Shown here: positions 7,177 through 26,509 of the stretch, one piece after another
How positions within the stretch are numbered: the stretch's first letter is position 1
How the letters are laid out: each line of letters starts with the position of its first letter
Assembly (NCBI RefSeq): GCF_036226745.1
Contig: NZ_CP109013.1
Span: 620,001-684,000, forward strand
Reading direction: 5' to 3'
DNA from: Streptomyces sp. NBC_00683
GTDB lineage: Bacteria > Actinomycetota > Actinomycetes > Streptomycetales > Streptomycetaceae
Length of the DNA stretch: 64,000 nt
The notes under the pieces: model-generated
Databases searched by the model: none
Told to the model about the DNA's origin: nothing
The model's input: only the letters and a program-made list of their open reading frames with translations
Made by a program: the position numbers and the translations under genes

Positions 7177-7258
7177 CGGCGGGCCACCACCCTCAGCCGT
7201 CGCAGGCACGCACAACACAGTGATCTGCACTCAGGACAGACAGAGTCGGAGGAATCGT

Positions 7259-8308: not shown

Positions 8309-9098
8309 CATCGGCGGAAGCACGAGACTGTTCGCCGTCCTCGGTGACCCCGTGGCGCAGGTGCAGGCACCGGCGCTGCTGAATCCGGTCTTCGAGCAAC
8401 TCGGACTGGACGCGGTGCTGTTCCCCGTCCACGCGCCGGCGGACCGGCTCGGGGCGATCATCGGCGGACTTCAGCGCATCAGCAATCTGGACGGTCTGCT
8501 CATCACCGTGCCCCACAAGATGGAAGCCTGCCGCTACGCGGACGAGCTGAGCCCGGCCGCCGCGCTGGTCGGGAGTACCAACGCCATGCGGCGCGAGGCC
8601 GACGGCCGCTGGTACGGCGAGAACTTCGACGGGGTCGGCTTCGTCAACGGTCTGCGGAGCGCGGGCCACGACCCGAGCGGGAGGCGCGTGTTCCTGGCGG
8701 GTGCCGGAGGTGCGGGCACGGCCATCGCGGCGGCGCTCCTCGGCGCGGGGGCCGCCCATCTGTCGGTGTACGACCCCGACCCCGACCGGTTGTCCGCACT
8801 GGTGGCCCGTCTCGACCGCAGCGCGCCCGGCCGCACGACCGGCTCGTGTACACCACGCCTCCAGGACGCGGAGGTCGCCGTGAATGCCACACCGCTCGGT
8901 CTGGACCCCGGCGATCCGCTGCCCTTCGCACCGCGCGAGCTGGCACCCGGCGCGGTCGTCGCCGACATCGTGATGCATCCCAGGGAGACCGAGCTGCTCA
9001 GGAAGGCAGCCGCACTGGGCCTTTCCGTTCATCATGGGATCCACATGCTGGACCATCAGATCGCCCTCTACCGCTCCTTCTTCCGACTCGGTATGTGA
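8295..9098 (+). CDS. rifI: shikimate/quinate dehydrogenase family protein (RifI-like, aminoquinate dehydrogenase)
   Basis: 267 aa from GTG 8295, or 265 aa from ATG 8301. It has the catalytic lysine in ITVPHK, the substrate motif GENFDGVGF and the Rossmann motif AGAGGAGTAIA near 137. The usual SxS substrate motif at the N-terminus reads GDPVAQVQAP, so it is not a housekeeping AroE. RifI-type enzymes interconvert aminodehydroquinate and aminoquinate, a side reaction not essential for AHBA. It overlaps the preceding aDHQ synthase gene and ends the right arm of AHBA genes. Confidence 0.82.
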   Translation: MAMPDIGGSTRLFAVLGDPVAQVQAPALLNPVFEQLGLDAVLFPVHAPADRLGAIIGGLQRISNLDGLLITVPHKMEACRYADELSPAAALVGSTNAMRREADGRWYGENFDGVGFVNGLRSAGHDPSGRRVFLAGAGGAGTAIAAALLGAGAAHLSVYDPDPDRLSALVARLDRSAPGRTTGSCTPRLQDAEVAVNATPLGLDPGDPLPFAPRELAPGAVVADIVMHPRETELLRKAAALGLSVHHGIHMLDHQIALYRSFFRLGM

Positions 9099-9279
9099 GG
9101 ACGCGGCCCCCGCGGAAAGACTGTGAACAGCCCATTAACCAACAAGGGCTGCAGGGGTGTTCTCTCCTATGCTGGGCAGCCGGGTCGCCTTCGACATGCC
9201 GATCGGACCGGCCCATACGGCCTCGTGCGCACGGCGGCTCGCCCGTGTGCCCGGGGACCGGCCGGAACGGGGGGCATAC

Positions 9280-12243: not shown

Positions 12244-12396
12244 CAGCGCCGCCCACCGGGCCCGCCGCACCGGCGGGACCGGTCCGGCGGCCGGTGCCGC
12301 AACGCGGCGTGCAGGGGGCGGGTTGACACGGGCGCGCCGTCATGGCGCACTGGGGTGACGTGTCAACCGCCACTCGCCCCCCGAGGAATTCGTGCC

Positions 12397-12894
12397 ATGA
12401 ACAGCACCGCAGACCACCTCTCGACGCGCGAAGACCTCGTCTGGCGCGCGTTCTTCGAGACCCAGGTGCTCTTCTGGCGACGGCTCGGCCAGCAGCTCCA
12501 GCAGGACACCGGGCTGTCCGAACCGGACTTCGCCATCCTCAGCGCCCTCGTACAGGCACCGGAACAGCGGCTGCGCGCATTCGAGCTGAGCGGTGTCACC
12601 CAGTTCGAGAAGAGCCGGTTGCATCACCACCTGAACCGGATGATCGGCCGCGGACTGCTCACCCGTGAGCAGTGCCCCGGAGCATCCCGCGGCACCGTCA
12701 TCGCCCTCAGCCCCGAGGGCGTCACGGCCATCACCACGGCCCTCCCGATCCGCGCCGCCCATATCCGCCAGTGGCTGACGGATCCGCTCAGCGACGGTCA
12801 GATCGACTCGCTGACCGAGATCTCCGAGACCTTGCTCGAACGTCTGCGCGCGGCCGACCCTCCCCAGGCGACCCCGTCGACCGGATGCGCCTGA
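12397..12894 (+). CDS. MarR-family transcriptional regulator
   Basis: 165 aa from ATG 12397 with a CGAGGAA ribosome site. The MarR winged helix is recognisable by LSEPDFAILSAL, the recognition helix FEKSRLHHHLNRM and the wing GLLTREQCPGASRGT. The ligand and targets are unknown. It follows the SARP gene after about 150 bp and may mark the edge of the ansamycin cluster, or regulate export or resistance genes elsewhere. Confidence 0.85.
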   Translation: MNSTADHLSTREDLVWRAFFETQVLFWRRLGQQLQQDTGLSEPDFAILSALVQAPEQRLRAFELSGVTQFEKSRLHHHLNRMIGRGLLTREQCPGASRGTVIALSPEGVTAITTALPIRAAHIRQWLTDPLSDGQIDSLTEISETLLERLRAADPPQATPSTGCA

Positions 12895-13141
12895 CCCCGA
12901 CGCCGAGGGAGCCTCCGACCCTGCGCAGGCTCCCGCACCGATGAGTTCCGCCCTCACCGCCGGTCCACCCTTCACAGGGCCGACGAAGGAGCGGGAAGGA
13001 TGACCAGGGTTCGAGCTGGAGTGGCCCGTCTCCACCGCGGAGGGGAAGGACGTGACACACCTTCGCCACCGCGTGCGGCACGCGTGACCTTGCAGCGCCG
13101 CCGGCCTCTGCGGGGTGAGGGTCGGGTGGTGCTGGGAGGCC

Positions 13142-13615
13142 CTAGTCCACCCGGTAGTTGACCAGGTAGACCGAACCCTCGACCGGCGACGAGGCGACCT
13201 TGGCGATGGGCCCCTCGCCGAGCTCCGCCTCCTCGATGCGGACCGAGCCCAGCAGGTCGTCGCCGGACAGGTCGTGGTCCCACAAGGAGAGGTTCTGGGC
13301 GCCCTCGACCGGCACGGCCAACCCCAGCGGCTGGGTCTGACCGGATCCCACCGATCCCGCCGAGCCGTTGCCCGGCCAGATCGCCTGGGAGAGGTCCCCC
13401 TGGGTGCTGGTGGTGATGTACAGGTCGTCGGGGTCGTCCCGGGAGGCGTCGATTGCTGCGAGGGCCTCGGGAACCGACTGCACGAGGGCCTCGAGAGTGG
13501 TCCCGCCCAAGGGGATCTTGCCGGCGAATGCGGCCACCGCGCTGTTCGCGGCAGAGTCGGTGCCGGTCGCCGCGTGGACGCAGTAGACGTCGAGAATGGT
13601 GGCGGTCGCTGACAT
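13142..13615 (-). CDS. C2-like domain protein of the wall-active block
   Basis: 157 aa, start ATG 13615 with a CTGGAGGAA ribosome site. The second half has a C2-type signature, LWDHDLSGDDLLGSVRIEE, with the spaced acidic residues that bind calcium or lipid in C2 domains. No signal peptide or membrane segment is visible. It is the last gene of the minus-strand block, 29 bp after the lysozyme-like gene. No specific function is recognised; a membrane- or surface-docking role is inference. Confidence 0.65.
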   Translation of the reverse strand: MSATATILDVYCVHAATGTDSAANSAVAAFAGKIPLGGTTLEALVQSVPEALAAIDASRDDPDDLYITTSTQGDLSQAIWPGNGSAGSVGSGQTQPLGLAVPVEGAQNLSLWDHDLSGDDLLGSVRIEEAELGEGPIAKVASSPVEGSVYLVNYRVD

Positions 13616-13644
13616 GGTCTTCCTCCAGTCGTTCGTCCGTGCGC

Positions 13645-14400
13645 TCAGCCCGGCAGTCCCATGAGCCGGCGCCACGTCTTGTTGCCGACCATGCCGTCCG
13701 CGGTCAGGCCGTTGTTCGCCTGGAACCACCGTGCGGCCTGGTCGCTGCGGGGTCCGAAGTTCCCGTCGACGACGAGGGGAGGGGTGCAGCCGAGGTCGTT
13801 CAGACGCTGTTGGAGGTTCTTGACCCCCGGTGCCACGGTTCCCCGTCGCGCGAAGGGCTGGTCCGCCGCCTCCCGTTCGGCCCGGCCGGGATGGTCGGCC
13901 AGCCACTGTGACATGTCTCCCGGCAGACTGTCGGGGCCGTGCGTCTGTCCGGGCCGCCATCCTTCGACCTGCTGGATCGCGGCGGCGAAGGTGGTGAGCT
14001 GGCCGTCGTCCAGGTCGGCGACGGCGGTTCCCGTTCCGACGCCCAGGCTGTCGGCCACCCTCTGGGCGTACGCCTGGGGATCGTTGGCGCCATGACCGGC
14101 CGGGGCGTAGGTCCGCATCATCTCAAGGATCGTCTTGTCGCCCCGGCGAGCGAGGTAGCGGCGGATGGCCTCGAAGCCCGTTTCCTCGCTGGGGAAGACG
14201 GCGAAGATGTCGTTGTGCTTGCCGGGATAGGCTCCGTAACTCTCGGCCTCGCCCTGCGCGCTCACGATGTTGCCGGGATTCTGGTTGTTCCAGGAAGCGG
14301 TGCCACCCGTGCGCATCGCTTCCTCGTAGAAGACATGGTCGACGCCGAGGATGCTGATGACATCGCCGGGTTCCATGTCGGACGCACCGGTCCAGGGCAT
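13645..14400 (-). CDS. lysozyme-like domain plus peptidoglycan-binding domain protein
   Basis: 251 aa from ATG 14400, chosen for the CGGAGG site ahead; an upstream ATG at 14451 lacks one. Residues ~30-160 resemble phage-type muramidase domains: NNQNPGNIV, then FAVFPSEETGFEAIRRYL and a closing IQQVEGW. Residues ~190-250 form a PG_binding_1 repeat (GVKNLQQRLNDLG, VDGNFGPRSDQAARWFQ, DGMVGNKTWRRLMG). It should bind and probably cleave peptidoglycan. There is no signal peptide from either start, which is odd for a wall enzyme. Confidence 0.75.
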   Translation of the reverse strand: MPWTGASDMEPGDVISILGVDHVFYEEAMRTGGTASWNNQNPGNIVSAQGEAESYGAYPGKHNDIFAVFPSEETGFEAIRRYLARRGDKTILEMMRTYAPAGHGANDPQAYAQRVADSLGVGTGTAVADLDDGQLTTFAAAIQQVEGWRPGQTHGPDSLPGDMSQWLADHPGRAEREAADQPFARRGTVAPGVKNLQQRLNDLGCTPPLVVDGNFGPRSDQAARWFQANNGLTADGMVGNKTWRRLMGLPG

Positions 14401-14678
14401 GGTGGCCTCCGAAGACGAGAGCCGTGCGGACTGGAAGTCGGGAAGGGGCATTCGGCCGCCGGTCCGTTCAGATTGACATGCATTCGGGCCGCGGTGCCGA
14501 AGCGTGGACTCCACTTCCAAGACCATCATGACGCCGATCCTGTTCCTGTGCCACACGGAGATTCTGGGGCGCAAAGCCCTGGGGAACGGCTCTCACCGGC
14601 CTCAAACCCGCCTCGGAACAGCGGTGTTCACGGACCCGCGGTCGTCACCGCCACGGTGTCCCAGGACCTCGCCGCCCC

Positions 14679-15182
14679 TCAGTCGATGAGGGTGCTGTGG
14701 TGCGCCACGGCCCCGCCGGACGGCGTCCAGGTCACGTGCCCGTGCTGGAACCGGTTCGAGCGGTTGTCCCCCGGACCCATTTCGTCGGTGGTCGGATAGC
14801 CGAGAAAGCTGCGCTCCCAACCCATGCCCGCCCACAGGTCGCGGATGGCTCCGTGCGTCTCCCGTGCCCCTGTCTGCGGGGTCCAGTAGATCGAACCGCC
14901 CTCGAAGTGGTTGAAGCGGCCGGCTCCGTCCGGGCATCCCGACTCGTCCGTGAGCGGGTAGCCCAGGAAGCCGCCGGAGCCGCCCAGTTCGGCGTAGTGG
15001 AGACGGATGTCGCCGTGGACCTCGTGCGCACCTGTCCCTTGCGTCCAGTAGATCGACCCGTTCGCGAAGTCCCGTGACGTTCCCCGCCCGTCGGGGTTCG
15101 GCCCTTCGTGGCTGCCCGCGCCCGCGTCGGACGGAGCGCCGATCCACTGAACCTGTGTCCACTTGTCGTCGATGGCTGTCAT
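14679..15182 (-). CDS. LGFP-repeat protein
   Basis: 167 aa made almost entirely of three LGFP-type repeats. Each has a GSIYWTxxTGAHxVHGxI segment followed by LGYPxTDE. LGFP repeats occur in actinobacterial surface proteins and wall hydrolases, and are thought to anchor to the envelope. No catalytic domain or signal peptide is seen. The start ATG 15182 has a CCGGAGG site. It lies 44 bp after the preceding gene in the same direction. Confidence 0.78.
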   Translation of the reverse strand: MTAIDDKWTQVQWIGAPSDAGAGSHEGPNPDGRGTSRDFANGSIYWTQGTGAHEVHGDIRLHYAELGGSGGFLGYPLTDESGCPDGAGRFNHFEGGSIYWTPQTGARETHGAIRDLWAGMGWERSFLGYPTTDEMGPGDNRSNRFQHGHVTWTPSGGAVAHHSTLID

Positions 15183-15226
15183 GTCTCTCGACCTCCGGCC
15201 GAAGCTGTACGCGGTGGGGATTCAGC

Positions 15227-15913
15227 TCATGGTTCGTCGGGACGGTTCGTCTGCAGGGGCAGCCAGTCCCAGAAGTTGTGGGTGCCCGCGGGCCGGTAGC
15301 GGACCAGCCCGGAGAAGTGCGGGACCCGGACGAGCGCATGGGAGGTCGCTGCCTTCCCGGCCTCGTCGAAGGTGTCGGAAACGTCGCCGTGCCAGTAGCC
15401 GGCATCGTGCAGGGCATCCCCCGAGAGCTCGTGCGGCGGAGAGACACAGAGCGGCAGATACAACTGTGCAGGCCCGCCCTTGTCGGCGATCACCTGGTCC
15501 AGAGCCCGGCCCGCGAGCTGGGTATGGGCCCCGGTTCCGGCCCCGGGCGCGAACTGCTGCAGGATCAGCGCCAGTGGCAGGTCCCCGACGCTCTTCCAGG
15601 CCACGGCGAACGCACCGCCCATGTCGCCGCTCTCACCGCTGCTCTCCGGCTCCGCGCCCGGCACTCTGACGACGAACCCGCTGCTGTCCGTCACGGGCCG
15701 CAGCCGCCAGCCCTCGGCCCGGCCGTCGGCGTTTCCGGCGGCCGCGCCCTCCGCCCAGGCGTCCATGAATCCGGGATGCCGGGTCGACGGCGTCTGCGGC
15801 ACGTCGGGGGGTGTGCTGACACCGGCGTCGTAGCCGGCCTGCCAGCCTCTGGCTTCGACCGAGGAGCCGAAGTCTCCGTCCTTCTCCTGGCCGTAGGGAT
15901 TGGTTCGGGGCAT
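15227..15913 (-). CDS. hypothetical protein in wall-active block
   Basis: 228 aa, not recognised. The N-terminus is polar and Gly/Asp-rich (NPYGQEKDGDFGSS). The rest looks like a soluble alpha/beta or beta-rich fold with several Trp residues (YWHGDVSD, HNFWDWLPL). No signal peptide, membrane segment or known catalytic motif is visible. It is tightly placed between the M23 peptidase gene (21 bp) and the LGFP gene (44 bp), so it belongs to the same transcription unit. It could be a structural partner or an immunity protein; neither can be shown. Confidence 0.7.
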   Translation of the reverse strand: MPRTNPYGQEKDGDFGSSVEARGWQAGYDAGVSTPPDVPQTPSTRHPGFMDAWAEGAAAGNADGRAEGWRLRPVTDSSGFVVRVPGAEPESSGESGDMGGAFAVAWKSVGDLPLALILQQFAPGAGTGAHTQLAGRALDQVIADKGGPAQLYLPLCVSPPHELSGDALHDAGYWHGDVSDTFDEAGKAATSHALVRVPHFSGLVRYRPAGTHNFWDWLPLQTNRPDEP

Positions 15914-15934
15914 GACGGCTTCGCTCCTTCGTCT

Positions 15935-16621
15935 TCACCATTGAGGCTTCGCGACGAGGCCGTAGGACCAGGAGGGGCCCTTCGACATCTCGAAGTGCAG
16001 GTGCGGGCCTGTGGAGTTGCCGGTGGAGCCGACCTTGCCGAGCTGTTGGCCCGCGCGGACGGCCTGGCCCTCCTTGACCTGCAGCGCGGAGAGGTGGCAG
16101 TACGTGTACACGTGGCCGTTGTCGGCCCGCAGGCCGATCCACTTGCCGTAGGCGCCGCCACCGCCGTTGGACCAGGCGATGGTCCCCTTGCGTACGGCCA
16201 CCACAGGGGCGCCGGCCGGAGCGGCGAAGTCCTGCCCCGTGTGGCGGCCCACCCCGTCGGGCTTCCACGCGTAGGGGCCGCGGGCGAAGAACGCGAACGA
16301 CACACGGCGCCCGGGTACCGGGGACGCCACCCGTGGCGAGCCCTTGGACGTGTTGCTCCCTTCGGGGACTCCCGTGCAGTCGACGGGAAAGCCACCGAGA
16401 CGGCCGAGTTCCGTGAGGGACTTGCAGCCCGGTACGCCGTCGGCGTCGGCTCCGCTGTATCCCTGGGCCTCCTGCTCCGCCGCGTAGGCGGCCTTGGTCT
16501 GGTCCCCGAAGAGACCGGTGGCGCCGTCCGGGATGCTTCGTCCCCGGGCGATCAGTGCCTGCTGGACGATCCGGATGTCGTCGTTCGACTCGCCGTACTG
16601 AACCTTGGCCAGCATCACCAT
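15935..16621 (-). CDS. PG-binding domain plus M23 metallopeptidase
   Basis: 228 aa from ATG 16621; the start is uncertain because the ribosome site is weak, and GTG/ATG codons follow closely. Residues 1-85 are a peptidoglycan-binding module ending in GADADGVPGCKSLTELGRL. That module is almost identical to one in the transglycosylase-like gene at 22931. Residues ~110-228 are a LytM/M23 domain with the zinc motifs HTGQDF and HLHFEM. It is expected to cut peptide cross-bridges. No signal peptide is present from any plausible start. Confidence 0.85.
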   Translation of the reverse strand: MVMLAKVQYGESNDDIRIVQQALIARGRSIPDGATGLFGDQTKAAYAAEQEAQGYSGADADGVPGCKSLTELGRLGGFPVDCTGVPEGSNTSKGSPRVASPVPGRRVSFAFFARGPYAWKPDGVGRHTGQDFAAPAGAPVVAVRKGTIAWSNGGGGAYGKWIGLRADNGHVYTYCHLSALQVKEGQAVRAGQQLGKVGSTGNSTGPHLHFEMSKGPSWSYGLVAKPQW

Positions 16622-16678
16622 GACGAACTCATCCCACTCTCTCCTTGCTCCTGACGCATGTCGTGGCACTGCAGCGCA

Positions 16679-18175
16679 TCAGCTCCACGGGGTGACGGTG
16701 AGGCGGATCCTCGCCTGTTCGCCGAGGATCGGCGTGGCGCTCTCGGGCAGCGGGATGCCGGCCACCCACACACCGGTGCTGGAGTCCTCGTCGGCAACAG
16801 GTGCGCCGCTGGGCTCGTGGTCCCTGATCGCACCGGGGATGAGGGAGTTCCAGGCAGCCCAGGTCCCCTTGCCGACGTCGATGACGAGGATGTCGTCGAA
16901 GTCGGCAGTCTGTTCGAGATGGTCGCCGAAACTCAGGAACCCGTCGCGTTCGCGCAGCGACAGGATGCGCAGGTGCAGCGCGTAGCGCATGGTTCCGCTC
17001 CCGTCCCCCGGGCGCAGGGAGCTGCACAGGAAGGTTGTCGTCAGCGGCACGGTGTCCTGCGGATCCGACGAGGACAGTTGAACCGGACACCAGTGAGCGG
17101 TCGACCGCTCGTGGATCAGCACCGGCAGACCGCGCACCGACAGCTGGGTCTCGGCCTGCCACGTGGCCGTGCGGTCCGAAGGGAGCCGGTGCCCGACCAG
17201 TTCGGCCACCACCTTCCGGTCGCCGAAGAGGAAGCGCCGCAGGTTCTGGTACCCCTCCTCCGAGTTCACGAGGCCGTAGCGGCCGCTGTGACTGCGGTGC
17301 AGGTATGCCCGGTGTGCCCCGGGGACATAGGCGTTCTCGATCTGCACCAGCCCGTCGCTGCGACTGCCCACGGCTGCGGACGAGAGGCCGAAAGCGACCT
17401 CGTAGTCCGTGGGGTTCGTCCCCACCAGGCAGAAGACCCGGTGCCGGGGAAAGGCGAGGGGTGCGTCGGTGCCGCGCTCGGGCATGTCACGGGCGCGCCA
17501 GCCTTCGGGGCGGCCGTTCGGGTCCAGCGCCGCCGTGGGGGTGAGGTACTCGTACATGCGCTGCGGTCCGAAGATGTCGGCCCCGTTGATGCCGATCGCA
17601 TCACGCACCTTCTCGAACAGACCGAAGCCCGCCTCGAAGGCGATCCCTCCGTGCGGTGTTCCGTACGTGAACAGCTTGTCGACGCACTCGGCCGGGTCAC
17701 GGCCGAGATCCGGCAGGATCTTCTGCACGAGGCACCGGCAGATGAGTCCGCCCATGGAATGGGCGACGAGGTGGACGCGGGGAGCCCCGGACTTGGCACG
17801 GATCTTGTCGACGAGCCGCAGCAGATCAGCAGCGGCGTCCTCCAGCCGGAACTCCTCGGCCGTGCCGTCCCAGGTGTTCGCGGAGACGTCGTAGAAGCGG
17901 TGCACCCAGACGCTGTCGGGCGGAACCGCCTCATGGGTGTCGAGATAGGCTTCCTGACCCCCCTCGACCAGAATGTTGTATCCCTCGTCCAGATGCAGTC
18001 GCAGAAGAGGGCTCTCGAACTGGTGGAAGCTGGGCTGATTGCCTGCTCCTACGCGCACATGGGTGGAACCCTCGTTGAATCCGTAGAACGGATCCATGAC
18101 GACGTTGTTGATTCCCGAGGTGTCGCCCGCGAATCCTCGTACATAAACGATCGGGAGCTTTTCTCTGCCAGGCAT
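16679..18175 (-). CDS. alpha/beta-hydrolase, lipase/PGAP1-like
   Basis: 498 aa. The nucleophile elbow is HLVAHSMGGLI with Ser140, preceded by helix EDAAADLLRLVDKI and followed by FTYGTPHGG, a pattern common in lipases and PGAP1-like esterases. The C-terminal ~180 residues form an extra, unrecognised beta-rich domain. No secretion signal is visible. It lies in the middle of the wall-active block, 22 bp from the M15-like gene. A lipid-cleaving role would complement the wall hydrolases; the substrate is unknown. Confidence 0.8.
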   Translation of the reverse strand: MPGREKLPIVYVRGFAGDTSGINNVVMDPFYGFNEGSTHVRVGAGNQPSFHQFESPLLRLHLDEGYNILVEGGQEAYLDTHEAVPPDSVWVHRFYDVSANTWDGTAEEFRLEDAAADLLRLVDKIRAKSGAPRVHLVAHSMGGLICRCLVQKILPDLGRDPAECVDKLFTYGTPHGGIAFEAGFGLFEKVRDAIGINGADIFGPQRMYEYLTPTAALDPNGRPEGWRARDMPERGTDAPLAFPRHRVFCLVGTNPTDYEVAFGLSSAAVGSRSDGLVQIENAYVPGAHRAYLHRSHSGRYGLVNSEEGYQNLRRFLFGDRKVVAELVGHRLPSDRTATWQAETQLSVRGLPVLIHERSTAHWCPVQLSSSDPQDTVPLTTTFLCSSLRPGDGSGTMRYALHLRILSLRERDGFLSFGDHLEQTADFDDILVIDVGKGTWAAWNSLIPGAIRDHEPSGAPVADEDSSTGVWVAGIPLPESATPILGEQARIRLTVTPWS

Positions 18176-18197
18176 GAGGACACCTCACTGCCCCCGG

Positions 18198-18893
18198 TCA
18201 GCACGAAGGGATATCCGGGAGCCAGGCACTTGGATGGTCGATGAAGATGTTGGAGACGTATCCCCCGTATTCGGGGAGGAAGGACCAGGCGTTGTTGGTG
18301 TGGCCCGCGGTGCTCACCGTCTCGCCCTCCCGCTGGCACGACACACGCACCTGGGTGGGGCCGGCAAGTACGGCGACGACCGGCGCACTCAGGAGCGGCT
18401 CCTGGCGTACGTTCACGCCGGTTCCCCACGTCATGAAAACGGTGCCGGTCTCGACGTGTTCACCCCCGCGGTCCTCCGGTGTCTCCCCGAACACGGGGAG
18501 GTTCCAGGGCCGGTCGTCGTCGCACAGCGGGCTCGCGACCACGGAGAGGTGAAAGTGCTTCTCGTGCGGGTTCGCACCGTCGTACGGGCCCCACTGCCAG
18601 CTGCGGCTGCTGCCGATGCGGCGGTTGGCGATGACGTATTTGATCCTGGGGTCCTGACTGCCCAGCAGCTGGTCACCGATCTGCTGGATGTCGAGGCCGT
18701 GGGCCGGATCGTGGGTGAAGTCCCGCGCGGTGACGATTCCGGGTCCGTACCAGGGATTGTGATCGCTCGCGCTTCCGGACTTCTGATGCGCCTCGTCCCC
18801 GATCCCGCCGTCCGAGGCGGTGGAACGACCGGGAAATCTGGCGTTCAGTTGATGCCGCAGCGTTTCGAGGCTTGTTGCGACCCGCCAATCCAT
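18198..18893 (-). CDS. M15-like peptidase domain plus SH3-type domain
   Basis: 231 aa from ATG 18893; the frame stays open upstream, but the homology begins here. Residues ~1-150 match endolysin-type D-Ala-D-Ala peptidase folds: SASDHNPWYG, TARDFTHDP, HGLD and the metal motif NPHEKHFHLSV. Residues ~165-231 are a bacterial SH3 domain (GVNVRQEP, NAWSFLPEYGGYVSNIFI). SH3 domains bind wall or peptides. The layout is that of a phage-type endolysin. No signal peptide is seen. Confidence 0.75.
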   Translation of the reverse strand: MDWRVATSLETLRHQLNARFPGRSTASDGGIGDEAHQKSGSASDHNPWYGPGIVTARDFTHDPAHGLDIQQIGDQLLGSQDPRIKYVIANRRIGSSRSWQWGPYDGANPHEKHFHLSVVASPLCDDDRPWNLPVFGETPEDRGGEHVETGTVFMTWGTGVNVRQEPLLSAPVVAVLAGPTQVRVSCQREGETVSTAGHTNNAWSFLPEYGGYVSNIFIDHPSAWLPDIPSC

Positions 18894-19006
18894 CGTCACC
18901 ACTTCCCCACAGAGGCCGAATAACTCAACTCTAGTCCTCATCAACCCGTCCGGCCACAGGAGTTGAGGTGTACCGGGCGCGAATTCCACACCGCCGCGGA
19001 AAGCCC

Positions 19007-20536
19007 TCAGCGCGGTACTCGCAAGGCCTTCCAGGAGGCGGGTCCAGGAATTCCGTCCGCGTCCGTTCCGCGGTATCCGAGTTTCCGCTGCCACAGGGTG
19101 AAGGACGCACGGTCGGCCTGCGTCCATTGAGGCCCGGGGGCCTCCTTGTAGGCGGAGCACCCCTCCTGCACGAGCCGCTTGCCCATGGCGTGGATCACCG
19201 GGCTCCTGGGGGCGCCCTTGAACCACTTGGCGCCCGGGAACGGCTCGTACTCCGGCGCCGGCGGCCGCCCAGGATCATCGGTGGGCGGCAACGCCGGCAG
19301 AGGAGTACCGAGCACGCCGATGACCTGTGTGCCGAGGCCGAGGACCGTCGTCGTCCGGGCGACGGTGCCGTCGCCGCCCACCGACGCGGCCGCGTCCGAC
19401 CGGAGCAGGAACGGGCCGAACGCCGGCATCGACGTGCCCAGCGCGGCGCGCGCGCCGTCGGTCCACTGCCCGGTGATGCGGACATCTCTGACCAGCAGCA
19501 GGGCCTGGGGCAGACAGTGTGCGGTGCCGTCCTCGGGCGGACTGGGCACGAGCTGCCCACGCCGCATTCCGGGCAGGTACCAGCCCGCGTCCGCTATCAG
19601 TTCGCCGTGCCACCAGGACCGGCCACCGATCCGCCGGACGATCCGGACCAGGCAGTGTTCGAAGTGCACGTGCAGGTCGCTGCCCGGATCTGTCGCGCTC
19701 GTGGGCGGCTCAGGCGCGGGGACGTCGTCCACGACCGCCTCCGCCCCGACTGCCGTGATCATCCTGGGCCGCAGAGACGGCATCAGGCGGACGGCCGAGT
19801 TCGAGAGGGCAGCGTGCTCCTGCGCGGTGGCGACCTCGGGCGGCAGGAGGGCGGCGGCCGTGCCCGGATCGCCCCCCGGGCTCTCCTCCGTCACGGACTC
19901 CATCGCGACCCTCAATGCGGACGCCCGGTCGGCGTTCAGTCCCAGCATGGTGTCTCGGGGTGCCGCTGCCACCCCCTCCTCGACCTGTCCGCGCAGCCGC
20001 CACAGCAAAGGGTTCGCCACGACACCGGACGTCCCCTGCCCCGCGGCGGGGGCGTCCGACGGTGTTTCCGCGATGGTGGTGTCGAACGACTGCCAGTGGG
20101 CGGCCCCGCTGGGGGCCGCCCAGTCGTCCGGCTCGACGCTCAGCGGCAGCGCCTCGGGGTTGGGGCCCAGATCCTTGCGTGCGAGGTTCAGCAGATCGCG
20201 GACCCTCGCTGCGGACTCCGATCCATCGGCACCGGCGGGGCGGCCGTACCCGGCAATCGCCGCGTACAAGGACGAGGCCGTGATGCCACTGCCGATTGCC
20301 GCCGGAATGGGAGTGCAGTCACTCAGCCGAAGGAGCAAGGGATAGTCGTACTCGGCGCGCAGCCACTCGGAGACAACGAGCGGATTGACGACACCGTTCT
20401 GCACGAGGTCGTTGTCGACGGCCTGCCCCGGCAGGACCGCCAACGCGAACCCTGGGCCGCCACCTGCGTAGATCTCGACCAGTCGGTCGAGGACCTGCTG
20501 ACCGAACGCAGATGACGGGCCCTTGTCGGCTGCCAT
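19007..20536 (-). CDS. large unknown protein B with C-terminal PG-binding domain
   Basis: 509 aa from ATG 20536 (GTCAGGAAA upstream). The N-terminal ~250 residues are not recognised. Residues ~265-400 contain a block shared with the next gene upstream: a FExxL segment, then GGRSWWHGELIADAGWYLPG, a LVRDVRITGQW strand and TQVIGVLG. The C-terminal ~75 residues (KWFKGAPRSPVIHAMGKRLV, ADGIPGPASWKALRVP) are a peptidoglycan-binding domain typical of endolysins. No signal peptide. Its stop is 113 bp from the M15-like gene. Function unknown. Confidence 0.72.
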   Translation of the reverse strand: MAADKGPSSAFGQQVLDRLVEIYAGGGPGFALAVLPGQAVDNDLVQNGVVNPLVVSEWLRAEYDYPLLLRLSDCTPIPAAIGSGITASSLYAAIAGYGRPAGADGSESAARVRDLLNLARKDLGPNPEALPLSVEPDDWAAPSGAAHWQSFDTTIAETPSDAPAAGQGTSGVVANPLLWRLRGQVEEGVAAAPRDTMLGLNADRASALRVAMESVTEESPGGDPGTAAALLPPEVATAQEHAALSNSAVRLMPSLRPRMITAVGAEAVVDDVPAPEPPTSATDPGSDLHVHFEHCLVRIVRRIGGRSWWHGELIADAGWYLPGMRRGQLVPSPPEDGTAHCLPQALLLVRDVRITGQWTDGARAALGTSMPAFGPFLLRSDAAASVGGDGTVARTTTVLGLGTQVIGVLGTPLPALPPTDDPGRPPAPEYEPFPGAKWFKGAPRSPVIHAMGKRLVQEGCSAYKEAPGPQWTQADRASFTLWQRKLGYRGTDADGIPGPASWKALRVPR

Positions 20537-20551
20537 TTTCCTGACACCCTG

Positions 20552-22606
20552 TCAGGGACTGGGCGTGGAAGGAGGAGTTGCGTCGGCACTCGGCTGTCCG
20601 ACCGGAGGTGTGGCCGGTGCAGGGGCCGCAGGAGCAGCCGGTGCTACAGGTGCTGCCGGAGCGGCCGGTGTGATGGGAGCGGTCGGCGCGGCGGGAGCAG
20701 GGGCTGCCGGAGCGGCGGGTGCAGGGGCTGCCGGAGCCGCGGGTGCAGGGGCTGCCGGAGCAGGGGCCGCCGGAGCAGCCGCAGGGGCCGCAGGGGCCGC
20801 CGGGGCCGCCGGAGCAGCAGCTCCCTCAGTCGCAGCCGGAGCAGCGGGAGCAGCAGGAGCAGCCGCGTCCTTCGCGGCGTCCGGCTTGGGGGCCTCACCC
20901 GCGTCCTTCTCCGCAGTCTCGGGGGCGTCCACCTTCGGCGCCTTCGCCTGGATCTCCCCGACCCAGCCCACGATCTGACCGCCGAGAATCTCCAGGGTTC
21001 CGGCTTGCCCGTCACGGTGGAACGACCACCCGTAGTCGCTGCTCGCCTTCGTCTCGAACACACCGTGAGACTCGGAAGAGCTGCGCTGCACGTTGCCGCC
21101 GATCCCGAAGTAGCCGACGTTGCCGCCGTAACTCGTCGATTCGGCGCTGGTGTTGCTGGTGCTGTCGGAGACGGCCTTCTGGAAGGCGTCGCCCGCGTTC
21201 CCCCAGTTGTCGGCCGTGATCTTGACGTTGCGCATGACGATGAAGCCCTTGGGCACCATCGGGAGCAGCTTGTCGTCCCCGCCGGGCGGGATCTGCCCCT
21301 CCACCGTGCCGTCGCTGATGCAGCCCGCCTTCTGGCCGACGATGTACCAGCCGTTCATGTGGAAGAGGTCGCCGAGCAGCCAGGGACGCTCGATGCTGGC
21401 CAGGAACCACTCGAAGTCCACAGTCGCCGAGGAACTGACGTCCGCGAACTTGGAGTGGGACCCACTGTCCGCGTGCGCTCCCGAGGTACTGCTGCTGTCC
21501 GAGTGCGCGGCGTTGGCTCCGATGCTGAAGAGTCCGGCGCTGAAGCCCACGCCTCCCGAGGTGGAGGACGCGTAGTTGTCGTAGTAGGAGCGGCTGAACT
21601 GGTTGGTCCCACCCGAACCGGACGAGTTGAAGGATGTGGACGAGGCAACGACGTGATTCACACCGAAGCTCTTGTTCGTGTGGTCCCACCACGAGACCGG
21701 GTCGATGTAGGACCACGGAACCTTCGCCGCCACGGCACCGGAGAGCCCGAGCGAGTACGCCTCGAAGAGCTTGCGCGCCTGGGCGATGAACGTCGCGGCG
21801 GCGCTGCCTCCGATCGACTGCGTCGTCGCGATGGCGTCCTCGATCTCCTTGGCGCCCATGGCGTGCAGGTCGTTCCACGCCCTGTCGACCGCGCCCTGGA
21901 ACTTCGCGCTGGTCACGGGCCAGACCTGGCCCTGGGCCGGGTCCGTCATCGCCGCAGCGTGCGCGTTGGCGAAGGCGCCCACTGCGTCTTCCCACGTCTT
22001 CCTGTTGTGGTTGTAGATCTCGTACTTTCGCGTGTAGCCGGTCATGTTGCCGTCGGCGTCGAAGACGAAGAGCATCTTCTTGGCGGCATCGATGCGCGCC
22101 TGGACCTCCGGCGTGGGAGGGGGCACGGGTTCCGCCTGCATTCCCGCCAGCGCGGTCTGGTACGCGAAGCTGACCTTGCGGTCGGCCCAGGAGGAGGCGA
22201 CGCCGTTCTTGGTGACCATCAGCATGTTGTCGACACGCTGTGAGGTGTTGAACGCCGACTGGATCGCGTGCTGGAGCTGGGCATCCGGTTGAGGAGGCGT
22301 CGCTGCCAGAGCAGCCGCGGGCGTGACGCCCTCGGGCGTGGCCGGTGTGGCAGGGGCAGCGGGGGCGAACCGGCTGTCCGTGCTCGCGCCAGGGGCCGAC
22401 GAGCCGCCGGCGGGGGTCCACGGGTAGGAGTACATCGAGGGGTCGATGGGGTGTCCGACGGGCAGGTGCATGTAGACCGCGGTGCCGGACGGCTTGCCGT
22501 CCGGGCCCACCATCCTGGCCGTGATCGCGGAGTGGACCTGGTCGAGCGCGGCGAGCAGGGCTTGCGTTACACCCCCGGTCACCTGGAGTTGCTGGTCCAC
22601 GGGCAT
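20552..22606 (-). CDS. large unknown protein A with Pro/Ala-rich tail
   Basis: 684 aa from ATG 22606, with a strong AAAGGAGAA site. A Pro/Ala-rich linker around 75-115 follows an N-terminal segment. The middle is helical, and residues ~345-420 are Ser/Gly-rich. A domain at ~420-545 is shared with protein B (DFEWFLASIERPWLLGDLF, NGWYIVGQKAG, MRNVKITADNW, ILGGQIVGWVG). The last ~130 residues are nearly pure Ala-Pro repeats. No signal peptide or known family. It is the first gene of the minus-strand block and lies 15 bp before gene B. Confidence 0.72.
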   Translation of the reverse strand: MPVDQQLQVTGGVTQALLAALDQVHSAITARMVGPDGKPSGTAVYMHLPVGHPIDPSMYSYPWTPAGGSSAPGASTDSRFAPAAPATPATPEGVTPAAALAATPPQPDAQLQHAIQSAFNTSQRVDNMLMVTKNGVASSWADRKVSFAYQTALAGMQAEPVPPPTPEVQARIDAAKKMLFVFDADGNMTGYTRKYEIYNHNRKTWEDAVGAFANAHAAAMTDPAQGQVWPVTSAKFQGAVDRAWNDLHAMGAKEIEDAIATTQSIGGSAAATFIAQARKLFEAYSLGLSGAVAAKVPWSYIDPVSWWDHTNKSFGVNHVVASSTSFNSSGSGGTNQFSRSYYDNYASSTSGGVGFSAGLFSIGANAAHSDSSSTSGAHADSGSHSKFADVSSSATVDFEWFLASIERPWLLGDLFHMNGWYIVGQKAGCISDGTVEGQIPPGGDDKLLPMVPKGFIVMRNVKITADNWGNAGDAFQKAVSDSTSNTSAESTSYGGNVGYFGIGGNVQRSSSESHGVFETKASSDYGWSFHRDGQAGTLEILGGQIVGWVGEIQAKAPKVDAPETAEKDAGEAPKPDAAKDAAAPAAPAAPAATEGAAAPAAPAAPAAPAAAPAAPAPAAPAPAAPAAPAPAAPAAPAPAAPTAPITPAAPAAPVAPAAPAAPAPATPPVGQPSADATPPSTPSP
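20590..20870 (-). repeat. Ala/Pro-coding low-complexity repeat
   Basis: Short GC-rich repeats built from GCAGGGGCTGCCGGAGC-like units, coding for the AAP/APAAP tail of protein A. Such tracts change length by slippage and can differ between strains or be misassembled. Confidence 0.75.
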
Positions 22607-22930
22607 GGCCTTCTCCTTTCGCTCGGTACTGTGCGAGTCCATTTCGGGAAGAGCGGGAGAGCGATCGGAGAAGCAGCACGCGAAGGGGGGACGACCGGAC
22701 CTCATCGAGTCCGGTCGGCAAAGGCACATTGGCGGACCGATTCACGCGACCGCGCGTGAGCACTTGATGCCCGATTAGGACGGTTCCCAGTATTCAGCAT
22801 TCGGGTGAAACATGCACCTCAGCCCGGAACTTCGCCCGCTTGCATCTGTCTTCCTCAACGTCAGAATGGAGACAGGAGTTGACAGTGCGTCTACTCAATG
22901 CTCCTTTCCCGGGACGAGGAGGCGACACGC
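22607..22930. other. divergent intergenic region of wall-active block
   Basis: 324 bp between protein A (minus) and the transglycosylase-like gene (plus). No gene is seen. A TTGACA hexamer at 22879-22884 is a possible -35 element for the plus-strand gene, but no convincing -10 follows. Both transcription directions of the block must start here. Confidence 0.4.
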
Positions 22931-23653
22931 ATGGTGCTGCTCGGAAACACTCAATTCGGCAAGTCCCACGAAGATGTCCGTACCGTCCAGCGCGCCCTCA
23001 TCGACCGGGGACGTGACATTCCGGACGGCGTCACCGGATTCTTCGGGGAGCAGACCAGGGCCGCCTATGCGGAGGAGCAGCGCGCCCAGGGCTATGCCGG
23101 GGCCGACGCGGACGGAATCCCCGGCTGCACATCCCTGACCGAGCTCGGGCGCCTCACAGGCTTCTCGGTGGACTGTCGCGGCGCCGTGGCGGCTCCCGCG
23201 CCTGCGGGAAAGCTGGGCTTGACGCAGGTCACGTACAACGACCCGCACGACGACGCCGGGCCGGCCGCGATGGAGAACTACGCCCGGAAGGCCTGCGCCC
23301 TGACCGGCATGGACCCGCGCTTCGGAGTCCCGGCGCTGGTCACCATCGCCAAGCGGGAATCCGCCTGCAACGACCGGCGCTGGCGGGTCAACACTGTGGA
23401 CTCGAACGCGCGCGGCCGGATCATGGCCGACGGGCATCCGCAGAACTGTTCGCGGGGCGCCACTCAGTGCATTCCCACCACATTCGCCGCCTACCACCAG
23501 GCGGAGACCGCCACGACCCCGTACGACGTGGTCGCCTGCATGTCCGCCACCATCAATTATGTACGTGATCGCTATGGCGTGAACCGGGCGGGTTCCAATT
23601 TCTCCTCACGTGTTCAGCAGGCCGATCCGAAGCGGCCTGCCCGCGGATACTGA
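22931..23653 (+). CDS. PG-binding domain plus transglycosylase/lysozyme-like protein
   Basis: 240 aa from ATG 22931 (GAGGAGG upstream). Residues 1-85 are a peptidoglycan-binding module, a close paralogue of that in the M23 gene (GADADGIPGCTSLTELGRL). Residues ~115-240 look like a lytic transglycosylase/lysozyme fold: candidate catalytic Glu in TIAKRESACND, then GATQCIPTTFAAYH and CMSATINYVRDRYG. It probably cleaves glycan strands. No signal peptide. It runs divergently from the nine-gene block. Confidence 0.8.
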   Translation: MVLLGNTQFGKSHEDVRTVQRALIDRGRDIPDGVTGFFGEQTRAAYAEEQRAQGYAGADADGIPGCTSLTELGRLTGFSVDCRGAVAAPAPAGKLGLTQVTYNDPHDDAGPAAMENYARKACALTGMDPRFGVPALVTIAKRESACNDRRWRVNTVDSNARGRIMADGHPQNCSRGATQCIPTTFAAYHQAETATTPYDVVACMSATINYVRDRYGVNRAGSNFSSRVQQADPKRPARGY

Positions 23654-23833
23654 GAGCCGCTGCGGGCTTTCCGGAGCAAGGTGGTTGCCTGGTCAATTGC
23701 CTCGTCCTGGAAGCCATATGGGGCCCGGCCGGGCAACCGCACGGGCCGCGAAGCAGTTCATTTCCCGTCGACTTGCCAGGCCTCGGAATCGTAGAACACT
23801 TGGCTGTGAAGGCACGCGCGATCAGAGGCGGTC

Positions 23834-26509
23834 ATGTCCTCTCGTTCCGAGCACCAATCCCCTGCCGATGTGTCTTCGCTACGAGCGCCTCATGTGATGC
23901 GTTCAGCAGCAATGACAGCCCTTGTCTTCGTCGCCCTGTTCGTCGTGATCCGCGCTGTCGGCGGTGAGGGACCCACCTGGCAGGCGACGGGCTGGATGAA
24001 GGTCATCGAGGTTCCGGCCGAGTGGTTCATGCAATTCGTCGACGGTGCGGCCCGTCTGGTGAAGGGGGGCAGTGACGGGGCCTCGTTGAGCGCCCGGCTC
24101 GGTTGTCTGCTGCTGCTCATCATCCTGTTCATGGCGCTTCGGCGCTGGATGCTCATGTACTACGCCCACAAGCCCGGGGCCGTGGACGTGAAGAAGCTCG
24201 TCGCCTCGGCACCGGGTATCGAACAGCAACTGGAGGGACTCACCGCGCAGTTGCGCAAACAACTGTCGGAGACGAACCTCTATCCGCCGACGGCCCTGCC
24301 CGCGGAGGCACCGGCTGACAACTTCCTCGATCTGCTCGGTGACGTCGACCTCGAACCCAAGAAACTGGGCACGAGCCTTCTCCGCCTCTTCAGCCGCTTG
24401 CGTCCGAAGATCGCCTACACGGTTCGCGGAGTCCTCCGGGTACGGGATCAGGAGCCCGGTTTCGGTATCACCGTCACTGTCACCTCCTACGCGATCCGGG
24501 GCAGCCGCACGGAATCGATCTGGAGTCCGACATGGGAGGAAGCCATTCAGGAGGCGGGCTACTGGGTGATGGCGACCCTGGTGCCCGTCACCCGGGCCGG
24601 CCGGCGCCCCCCTTGGCAGGGATGGCGCGGCCAGGACCTGCCGCCGGACCTCTTCGCCGCCTACCAGCAGGCTCGGGAGCTCAGCCAGGAGCGGAAGTTC
24701 GACGACGCCCTGGACCGCTACTACGAGGCGTTGCGACTCGATCCGACCAACCTCTACCTCCGCACGCAGATCGCGGGGATCCAGGAGCAGCTCTGGCTTC
24801 ACCTCGACGCCCTGGAGACGTACTACGGGGCCATCCTCCTGGACGGCCAGAACAGCGCGCAGCGCAACGCACGTACAGGAATGCGCTCCTGGGACCCTCG
24901 CCGGATCCTCCGCCGCCGCTACGGATGGTGGCAAAGCGGTCTCCTGGAGGCGCGCTTCCGCTACGCCGTCGTCCTCGGGGTGGCGGAGCGGACCGCCTAC
25001 CAGTGGTGCAAGAGCGACCGTCCGCCGTGCCCGCGGCGCGCGCACGCCCGGAAGGAGATCCGGCAGGCCCTCGCACCCGCTCTCGCCGCCCGGCACTGGC
25101 GTGCCTTCATGGGGCTCATTCCCCCGGGCGGCGCGGAGCCGTTCGCGTGGGATCAGGAAAGGCGCGCCAAGGAGTGGCTCGAGACGGAACTGGGAGAGGA
25201 GCGGCGCCGGTATCCGATCGTCCGTGAGATCTTTCAGCTCGCCTGCAGGGAGGAGATGCAGCAACTCGCCGCGGACTACCCCCGCATGATTCGCCTCCGG
25301 CACCCGTTCGTCCGTGCTCACGGAACGCTCACCCGGACCTCCCTGCGGCTCAACCGGGATGTGTGGGCACCCCTGCGCCTGGCCTGGGCCCACGAGGACG
25401 CGGAGCGCGACGGGATGGGCCTTCTGGAGAACCCCCTTTCCTGGCCCTCCTCCGCCGAGACGCTCGCGCACAGGACCAAGAGGATCAGAGGCCCGTTCCG
25501 CGCCGCGCGCCGGTGGTTGTCCCGCGGCTGGCGCCTGTGGCAGGACAACTACAACGCCGCATGCGTGTACGCAGTGGCGATGAACGGGACCGAGGGGCAG
25601 CCGGAAGATCAGGAACGCAGAGCCCTCGCGGATCTGGCCGTGGACGAACTGGAGGGCGCGGCGCACGCCGATGTGAGCGGCGTCCATCCGGTCACGCGTT
25701 CGTGGCTGCTCATCGAGGACCCGGATCTGGAGAAGCTGCGCCAGGAGAACCGCTTCATCCGCTTCGAGCGGGAGACGTTCCCGCATGCCGCGCCGGACCG
25801 TCATCGGCCCGAGCGTCCACTGCGGCCGGAGATGAAGGCTTACGACAAACGATTGCTGAGCGGATGCGCGGCGGTCATGGAACACACGTGGCGCGTCCGA
25901 CGCAGGCAGCTTCCCGCCGACGGGCACGTCCTCGCCCAATGGTTCGTCGGTGAGGCCGAGCTCTGGCGGTGCGTCGACCGCATCGCCTCGGACCAGGGGC
26001 GCAACTGGCGTGACCGGGAACGGCTCCTGCAGCGGGTCAGGGAGATCGCCGACAACGGGCTGCTGATCAGGTGCGGGCTGCCGTCGCGCCTGCCCGAGTT
26101 GGACGAGCTGCTGGACGACGCGACCTGGGACGCTCTCGACGACGTGCAGGAGCGGATCACGAGTTTCGAGGAGACGTTCACGGATCGGCTCTCGGCGGTG
26201 AGCCTTGCCGTGGCGGCGAGGTCGGACGGCTCGGCCAACCACCACTCCCCCATCCGTCTCAGCGGGCAGTGGCTGGCCTCGGTGCGGCAGAACGGCTCAT
26301 CGCCGGACTTCGTCAAGCAAGCCGCTGTCCATCAGGTGTGCTCGGACTACGAGATGGCCTGGCGGGCGCTGCGTGAGCTCCTCGACCCCGAGGAGAGCGC
26401 CACGGCGCTGTCCGACGCGCTGCTGCACTTCCACACCCCGCACGGCCCGTGGCGTGCGCTTGCTGTGATCAGAACGGGCGGGCCGCACGGTCTCCGGCGA
26501 GCCGGCTGA
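23834..26509 (+). CDS. large membrane-anchored protein with TPR-like region
   Basis: 891 aa. Two hydrophobic helices lie near residues 25-43 and 90-105, the second followed by RRWMLMYY. The long remainder is expected to be cytosolic. A TPR-like pair occurs at about 275-340 (ARELSQERKFDDALDRYYEA and a second helix pair). The rest is Arg/Trp-rich, helical and unrecognised. It follows the transglycosylase-like gene by 180 bp in the same direction. It could anchor or export the signal-less proteins of this block, but that is inference. No ATPase motif was found. Confidence 0.75.
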   Translation: MSSRSEHQSPADVSSLRAPHVMRSAAMTALVFVALFVVIRAVGGEGPTWQATGWMKVIEVPAEWFMQFVDGAARLVKGGSDGASLSARLGCLLLLIILFMALRRWMLMYYAHKPGAVDVKKLVASAPGIEQQLEGLTAQLRKQLSETNLYPPTALPAEAPADNFLDLLGDVDLEPKKLGTSLLRLFSRLRPKIAYTVRGVLRVRDQEPGFGITVTVTSYAIRGSRTESIWSPTWEEAIQEAGYWVMATLVPVTRAGRRPPWQGWRGQDLPPDLFAAYQQARELSQERKFDDALDRYYEALRLDPTNLYLRTQIAGIQEQLWLHLDALETYYGAILLDGQNSAQRNARTGMRSWDPRRILRRRYGWWQSGLLEARFRYAVVLGVAERTAYQWCKSDRPPCPRRAHARKEIRQALAPALAARHWRAFMGLIPPGGAEPFAWDQERRAKEWLETELGEERRRYPIVREIFQLACREEMQQLAADYPRMIRLRHPFVRAHGTLTRTSLRLNRDVWAPLRLAWAHEDAERDGMGLLENPLSWPSSAETLAHRTKRIRGPFRAARRWLSRGWRLWQDNYNAACVYAVAMNGTEGQPEDQERRALADLAVDELEGAAHADVSGVHPVTRSWLLIEDPDLEKLRQENRFIRFERETFPHAAPDRHRPERPLRPEMKAYDKRLLSGCAAVMEHTWRVRRRQLPADGHVLAQWFVGEAELWRCVDRIASDQGRNWRDRERLLQRVREIADNGLLIRCGLPSRLPELDELLDDATWDALDDVQERITSFEETFTDRLSAVSLAVAARSDGSANHHSPIRLSGQWLASVRQNGSSPDFVKQAAVHQVCSDYEMAWRALRELLDPEESATALSDALLHFHTPHGPWRALAVIRTGGPHGLRRAG

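Follow-up and report, generated by a model that had tools for sequence, protein, structure and literature searches.

Phage-type lysis cassettes, which consist of holin, endolysin and spanin, and Type 10 secretion are exemplified by YenLC of Yersinia entomophaga (PMC10847048). For contractile injection systems (CIS), a Tme-type example is that of S. davawensis; its cluster closes with the gene for a peptidoglycan-binding protein, BN159_7588, which is reported to bind mycelia as well as a neighbouring CIS protein (PMC11126660). Toxins associated with extracellular CIS (eCIS) include wall hydrolases such as EAT10, and these lie within eCIS loci (PMC8213781). Sco4256-4258, which the CIS cluster of S. 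coelicolor encodes, are CIS effectors with a transmembrane segment (PMC10066040). Here, we describe a block of eleven genes, G1 to G11, in Streptomyces sp. NBC_00683, whose genome is one contig of 8.52 Mb. The block lies in a stretch of 64,000 nucleotides (620-684 kb of the contig), which was analysed as a whole and is called the window below. What is new is the conserved gene pair G1-G2, its spread, and the tie of a stand-alone block of hydrolases to enzymes that lie beside CIS operons; no paper on the pair or the operon turned up in the open-licence PMC literature. In our best reading, the block works like a lysis cassette of phages or of the Type 10 secretion system, or like a detached set of CIS effectors.

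The block resembles the phage and Type 10 secretion cassettes in its bacterium-kept wall hydrolases of phage type that lack export signals, and in lysis as the presumed release route. It differs in that a holin was not found, in that many hydrolases are present instead of one endolysin, and in that the cassettes have no counterpart of G1-G2. Spanins are not expected in a monoderm. As in S. davawensis, the CIS of NBC_00683 ends with a protein that binds the wall, in this case an amidase bearing the wall-binding domain of G2 (the two were likened by description); however, the block itself lies 1.35 Mb from this CIS, lacks genes for sheath, tube and baseplate, and has G1-G2 at its centre. EAT10-type toxins are alike as wall hydrolases and possible injected antibacterial effectors, but the block lies outside an eCIS locus. 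The S. coelicolor effectors, compared by description only, are alike as envelope-directed proteins tied to lysis of the producer's own hyphae. Lastly, secreted Streptomyces autolysins have a Sec or Tat signal, whereas none of the ten proteins G1-G10 had one by a heuristic score.

Nine co-oriented genes on the minus strand, G1 to G9 (22606 down to 13142), form a tight operon with all nine reading frames intact. Seven of the eight gaps measure 15-113 bases and one measures 278 bases, as computed with the G3 start shifted by three bases. Two genes on the plus strand, G10 and G11 (22898-26509), diverge from the operon, and positions 12900-13141 hold no block gene. The features of the block are as follows.

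G1, 20552..22606, minus strand: first gene of the operon; conserved protein of 684 aa without a family
G2, 19007..20536, minus strand: partner of G1, 509 aa; C-terminal NF038080 wall-binding domain (residues 433-506)
G3, 18198..18893, minus strand: M15-like peptidase (motif only) with a weak SH3-like domain
G4, 16679..18175, minus strand: alpha/beta hydrolase, lipase-like
G5, 15935..16621, minus strand: peptidoglycan (PG)-binding domain and M23 peptidase
G6, 15227..15913, minus strand: protein without a family match
G7, 14679..15182, minus strand: LGFP repeats, wall-binding
G8, 13645..14400, minus strand: phage-type lysozyme-like part and PG_binding_1; the least certain start
G9, 13142..13615, minus strand: C2-like protein (motif only); serves as a marker for related clusters
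G10, 22898..23653, plus strand: PG-binding domain and transglycosylase-like part
G11, 23834..26509, plus strand: membrane protein with two helices and a large soluble part
Intergenic region between the divergent G1 and G10, 22607..22897, no strand: probable promoters, judged by position only

The wall enzymes of the block belong to known kinds. In profile searches of Pfam, NCBIfam and PHROG, G7 matched LGFP (E 7e-49), G5 matched M23 (E 3e-29) and PG_binding_1, and PG_binding_1 was also present in G8 (E 1e-15) and G10 (E 1e-6). G4 matched an alpha/beta hydrolase (E 5e-7), and G2 matched PG_bind_siph NF038080 with 104.9 bits, compared with a cut-off of 55. G8 resembles lysozyme-like parts of phage families (phrog_873, E 3e-15), and G3 matched phrog_32486, a family of unknown function (E 4e-16), together with a weak SH3 match. 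A preliminary description of this DNA had listed LGFP, M23, PG-binding, lipase-like and lysozyme-like domains, all of which were recovered by profiles; its transglycosylase-like domain (G10) gave weak PHROG matches only, and its M15-like (G3) and C2-like (G9) labels rest on motifs, without profile support. The two-helix membrane protein that it mentioned is G11, which has two membrane segments, a weak TPR match as its only result in Pfam, and no relative among plasmid records. Pfam and NCBIfam contained no family for G1, G6 and G9. Against the sequences of solved structures, no match was obtained with the G1 profile (E 1), with G6 or with a neighbouring protein from another locus, L003 (both E 10), and G9 gave one insignificant row (E 1.6); G3 had weak SH3 matches and G8 PG-binding matches. 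Antibody matches of G10 in the same search were judged to be chance.

None of the proteins G1-G10 had a start resembling a Sec or Tat signal. This was assessed with a home-made hydropathy score, not SignalP, and ATG, GTG and TTG codons up to and beyond the called start were tried; the best score was 1.45, compared with 1.65-2.95 in five exported proteins, which is a narrow margin. The lack of signal peptides at plausible starts, noted in the preliminary description, was borne out by this heuristic in 10 of 10 proteins at corrected starts. As a control, eleven other M23 matches in the genome were considered; nine had a signal or a membrane segment (1.68-3.35), one was unclear, and one was not evaluated. 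Among the other PG_binding_1 ORFs of the genome, 2 of 14 evaluated likewise lack a signal (two more were not evaluated), and signal-less wall-binding proteins are therefore uncommon but not unique.

The last ~75 residues of G2 matched, in addition to NF038080, 148 phage records with an identity of up to 69%. The names of 145 of these records contain Streptomyces and those of the other three Lomovskayavirus, which we take to be likewise phages of Streptomyces; the best 8 of the 148 are listed, and all eight are annotated as endolysin. The same tail ends five of the six Streptomyces G2 proteins seen, namely those of the window and of S. calvus as well as P0122, P0124 and P0125, in the latter three as scored by full-length coverage. 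The G2 proteins from outside Streptomyces that were seen in full have no wall-binding tail. Because the relatives of the tail belong to Streptomyces phages, its target is likely to be the Streptomyces wall, either the producer's own or that of its kin, as far as sequence comparison can tell. The wall-binding domain on G2 thereby makes a prediction about the target of the block.

G1 and G2 have a common C-terminal domain (hhalign probability 98.4, E 5.6e-15, 141 columns) that had no match in Pfam. In G1, a long helical region lies ahead of this domain, and the protein has an Ala/Pro-rich tail. At E 1e-3, 150 relatives of G1 were found. Among the matches listed (120), the identity was 38-87%, the nearest relative was that of Streptomyces anulatus (87%), and Streptomyces, Mesorhizobium, Rhizobium, Cellulomonas, Luteipulveratus, Mycolicibacterium and Caulobacteraceae were represented. 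The closest relatives of G2 were 62-66% identical and came from named Streptomyces. A pattern scan of one genome each of 84,980 species yielded eleven loci, and a twelfth locus is situated on a Neorhizobium plasmid. G2 follows G1 in 11 of the 12 loci by sequence search, and in the remaining one, from a Rhizobiaceae bin (L012), by alignment only. The pair was found in Actinomycetota, Alpha- and Betaproteobacteria, one cyanobacterial bin, one myxococcal bin and a rhizobial plasmid. The preliminary description had considered that the gene set might be confined to one strain, but S. calvus has G1, G2, an M15-like gene, an M23 gene and G9 in common with the window, and G1-G2 spans several phyla. 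The G9 profile was found in 2 of 60 other genomes, one of the matches being weak (E 3e-6). Relatives of G1-G2 from Sinorhizobium meliloti (L053) and from the Rhizobiaceae bin carry Sec-like signals, and the pair should therefore act at the envelope in at least some lineages. A profile search that started from the myxococcal member led to a large sister group, whose named members come from Stigmatella, Sorangium and Pendulispora as well as Bacteroidota bins. This myxobacterial and Bacteroidota sister group of G1 (L011, positions 9800-12688, and proteins P0134-P0251) is well conserved, and those members that bear a name are called only hypothetical protein.

G1 was modelled in two AlphaFold2 runs with mean pLDDT values of 61 and 69. 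In the models, long helices precede the common domain, and two Ser/Gly-rich stretches have no resolved structure; these two segments and the hydropathy are only suggestive of a pore. No significant similarity to viral structures in BFVD was obtained with the model. Neither G1 nor G2 had a MACPF/CDC match in Pfam at E 1, and the fold searches with G1 were uninformative on this point; they do not show its fold to be new. At another locus (L003), a neighbouring gene (3445-4011) was considered as a pore former of the MACPF kind and was dropped, as Pfam and PDB searches were empty.

Wall-hydrolase families of differing kinds lie at most two genes from the pair in four of the 12 other loci. The genes in the fetched loci were called with a codon-usage script of our own, and the starts may be wrong. 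In S. calvus (L002), M23 and hemopexin-glucosaminidase genes lie within two genes, and an M15-like gene lies one further. A Caulobacteraceae bin (L006) has an N-acetylmuramidase with PG_binding_1 and also a caspase, S. olivoreticuli (L007) has a glucosaminidase and a GH25-like protein, and L009 has a GH25-like match under the Pfam cut-off. The wall enzymes counted here scored at most 1.54 in the signal test, a value reached at an internal codon by the GH25-like protein of S. olivoreticuli; an Rv2525c-like enzyme at the same locus, for which an upstream codon gives an exported start, was left out of the count. The share rises to 4 of 10 without L005, a contig of 6 kb, and L010, which starts inside G1. 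The probability of such neighbours arising by chance is ~0.006 at an assumed background of 8% per locus and ~0.05 at an assumed 15%. Other neighbours of the pair were a C70 protease (L010), a subtilase and a haem peroxidase (L012), and MsrA (L005); the rest contained nothing telling.

Some surroundings of the pair were noted in their own right. In the Caulobacteraceae bin (L006, 1-7649), three large proteins without Pfam matches and the caspase-domain protein are encoded upstream of the muramidase and G1-G2. The region of the Rhizobiaceae bin (L012, 1960-15779) encodes a PAP2 phosphatase, a subtilase-like protein, a regulator-like protein, a haem peroxidase and the G1 relative with the Sec-like signal, and downstream lie two more exported-looking proteins that gave the impression of a similar look. 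On the S. meliloti plasmid NZ_CP021807.1 (L053, 2817-14734), five annotated TIR-domain genes and a gene for an ATP-binding protein are situated close to the G1/G2-like pair with Sec-like signals. On the Acuticoccus plasmid NZ_CP133483.1 (L055, 10285-13530), the gene directly after a G1-like gene encodes an OmpA-family protein with an export signal, which is again a wall-binding partner.

The explanation that we rank first, and hold tentatively, is that the block is an accessory lysis module that would act from inside the cell and in which G1-G2 would take the membrane step; cargo of a CIS supplied in trans and an outward weapon are ranked second and third. The hydrolases G3, G5, G8 and G10 and the wall-binding G7 would be made without export signals and kept in the cytoplasm, and the lipase-like G4 and the C2-like G9 may act on membranes. 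G1 and G2 would be the core, as related subunits most probably located at the envelope, with G2 anchored to the wall, and might help to open or bridge the membrane, which is the step of the holin in phages; they are thus candidate perforation or delivery subunits. Once the cytoplasmic membrane is breached, the hydrolases could reach a wall of the Streptomyces type, bind to it and dissolve it, and the producing hypha would be lysed from within, releasing a mixture that may attack the walls of kin. The timing, the lysis from within, the target and any membrane action of G1-G2 are what we infer in this scheme.

The lysis module is favoured because the operon is tight and intact and none of ten proteins has a signal, compared with 9 of 11 other M23 matches that have one, because the nearest relatives of the G2 tail are endolysins of Streptomyces phages and wall hydrolases lie by the pair in 4 of 12 loci, and because exported relatives of G1-G2 exist in Sinorhizobium and the Rhizobiaceae bin. 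The phage-like lysis proposed in the preliminary description gains from the endolysin-type wall-binding domain on G2 and loses from the lack of a holin: as that description had also stated, none was found, since no open reading frame (ORF) of holin size (30-160 aa) with a strong membrane segment is present in 12.8-27.2 kb, and no holin was among the PHROG matches of G1-G10 (G11 was not scanned against PHROG).

Besides the missing holin, several results weigh against a lysis module. Eight of the 12 other loci have their nearest wall hydrolase, if any, more than two genes from the pair, although two of the contigs end near it. One Streptomyces G2, that of S. olivoreticuli, has no wall-binding tail. 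Foldseek searches with the G1 model against PDB and viral models returned only matches to long helices and coiled coils (the colicin E receptor domain, HlyD, AcrA), with best E values of 0.19 for PDB and 0.053 for viral models. G1 was absent from all 40 other genomes of the genus and from the 20 nearest relatives, a set that overlaps the 40, and the exact G1 motif pattern occurred in none of 391 others, where the strict pattern may undercount. Because it is rare in the genus, the block is not needed for normal development.

The second explanation, which we regard as unlikely but as the most serious competitor, is that the block supplies effectors or attachment proteins, as a detached set, to the strain's own CIS; these would be loaded or docked on the particles in trans, as has been proposed for the wall-binding protein at the S. 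davawensis cluster end. The CIS operon of NBC_00683 (1.99-2.02 Mb) encodes a sheath, a tube, an eCIS_core protein and DUF6519. Its eCIS_core protein (L067/L065) has 2124 aa and a weak C-terminal endonuclease match, and resembles the Tme effector of S. davawensis. The last gene encodes an Amidase_2 protein; the NF038080 domains of this protein and of G2 share 64% identity, and the position of the gene recalls BN159_7588 at the end of the S. davawensis cluster, for which binding to mycelia and to a CIS protein has been reported (PMC11126660). In G038, a further genome, the same amidase (86%) closes one CIS; alongside another lie a truncated G9 and, ~1 kb beyond DUF6519 with an opposite-strand ORF in between, an M15-like gene with 71% identity to G3. 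S. olivoreticuli has an M23 gene after the AAA gene of a CIS, again with an opposite-strand ORF between the two; this M23 gene shares 48% identity with G5 over 223 aa.

Altogether, relatives of G3, G5 or the G2 tail were found at or beside the 3' ends of four of seven CIS operons judged, and of four of the six in Streptomyces (G038:C17, G408:C512 and G409:C178 were left out). No such enzyme was seen at the other three ends, those of a second CIS of S. olivoreticuli, of S. calvus and of one myxococcal genome, in BLAST searches against our own set, not Pfam, which unrelated hydrolases could escape. Against CIS cargo, none of the CIS ends examined showed G1-G2, and phage endolysins (69%) resemble the wall-binding domain no less than the domains at CIS ends do (64-68%). 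Sheath matches were present in 5 of 11 genomes that hold G1 (one of them weak) and absent from six, several of which are incomplete bins. The eCIS_core domain (DUF4157) is present in the CIS protein of NBC_00683 and absent from the Pfam matches of G1-G11. An eCIS_core leader is not found on every CIS effector. The genome's only sheath match is at 2.02 Mb, in agreement with the earlier statement that the window holds no tail sheath. The proposal that the proteins are cargo of an injection machine, and the question of eCIS co-occurrence raised with it, are thus answered in part: relatives of G3, G5 and the G2 tail do lie at CIS 3' ends, and G1-G2 is not tied to CIS.

More doubtful still is an outward weapon, in which G1-G2 would act as a toxin of two subunits, binding to competing actinomycetes and perforating them; the hydrolases, freed by lysis of a few cells, would finish the attack. 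Exported relatives of G1-G2, the mixture of wall, lipid and protein hydrolases by the pair or G9 at other loci, and the patchy distribution with plasmid locations fit such a role; an immunity gene was not recognised, the fold searches revealed no pore fold, and the block proteins of NBC_00683 lack export signals. That the block is a remnant of a prophage lysis region is very improbable despite the endolysin-type domains in G2, G7 and G8, as a search of 50,697 phage records with G1 was empty, a pattern scan of IMG/VR revealed no relative, all frames are intact, the pair is kept across phyla, and the 20 window ORFs scanned with Pfam contain no sheath, tube, baseplate or other phage structural family and no phage integration gene.

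The block offers a compact genetic handle on how signal-less wall hydrolases of Streptomyces get to the wall, and on how cytoplasmic CIS particles and other large products exit the cell or act at the envelope. A bolder proposal, to which we give little credence at present, is that G1-G2 represents a new class of two-subunit device for membrane breaching or delivery, unrelated to holins and contractile machines, which would have spread horizontally through several phyla, would pass interchangeable signal-less hydrolases (peptidases, glycosidases, lipases, proteases) across the membrane, and would be aimed at Streptomyces walls by a tail borrowed from phage endolysins. If G1-G2 opens membranes, bacteria would have a route of lysis or delivery that relies on neither phage holins nor contractile systems and that occurs on rhizobial plasmids as well as in a variety of soil bacteria.

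Relatives of G9 also lie elsewhere. On the plasmid NZ_CP109170.1 of Streptomyces sp. NBC_01724 (L056, 1-12492), a G9 relative lies together with a BTAD regulator, PG_binding_1, PLD-like, Tle1-like phospholipase and Ig-like proteins and DUF6603; this plasmid had no G1 match, and the cluster is possibly a sister system. In G038, a G9 relative is also found beside a related PG-binding gene.

BTAD regulators lie near the block in the window, near the S. calvus locus and in the NBC_01724 plasmid cluster; large regulators in L003 and L014 had weak domain matches only. A search for SARP-type repeats in 22607-22897 returned a single motif, and no RNA family reached its gathering score in 8-31 kb. The regulator of the window is the following.

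AfsR/SARP-type regulator (BTAD, AAA), 9157..12243, plus strand: possible regulator of the block

This regulator may instead serve neighbouring biosynthetic (dehydroquinate-synthase) genes. Directly before it, at 7016-9098 of the window, lie genes for a 3-dehydroquinate synthase and a shikimate-dehydrogenase-like protein, which possibly belong to a biosynthetic cluster.

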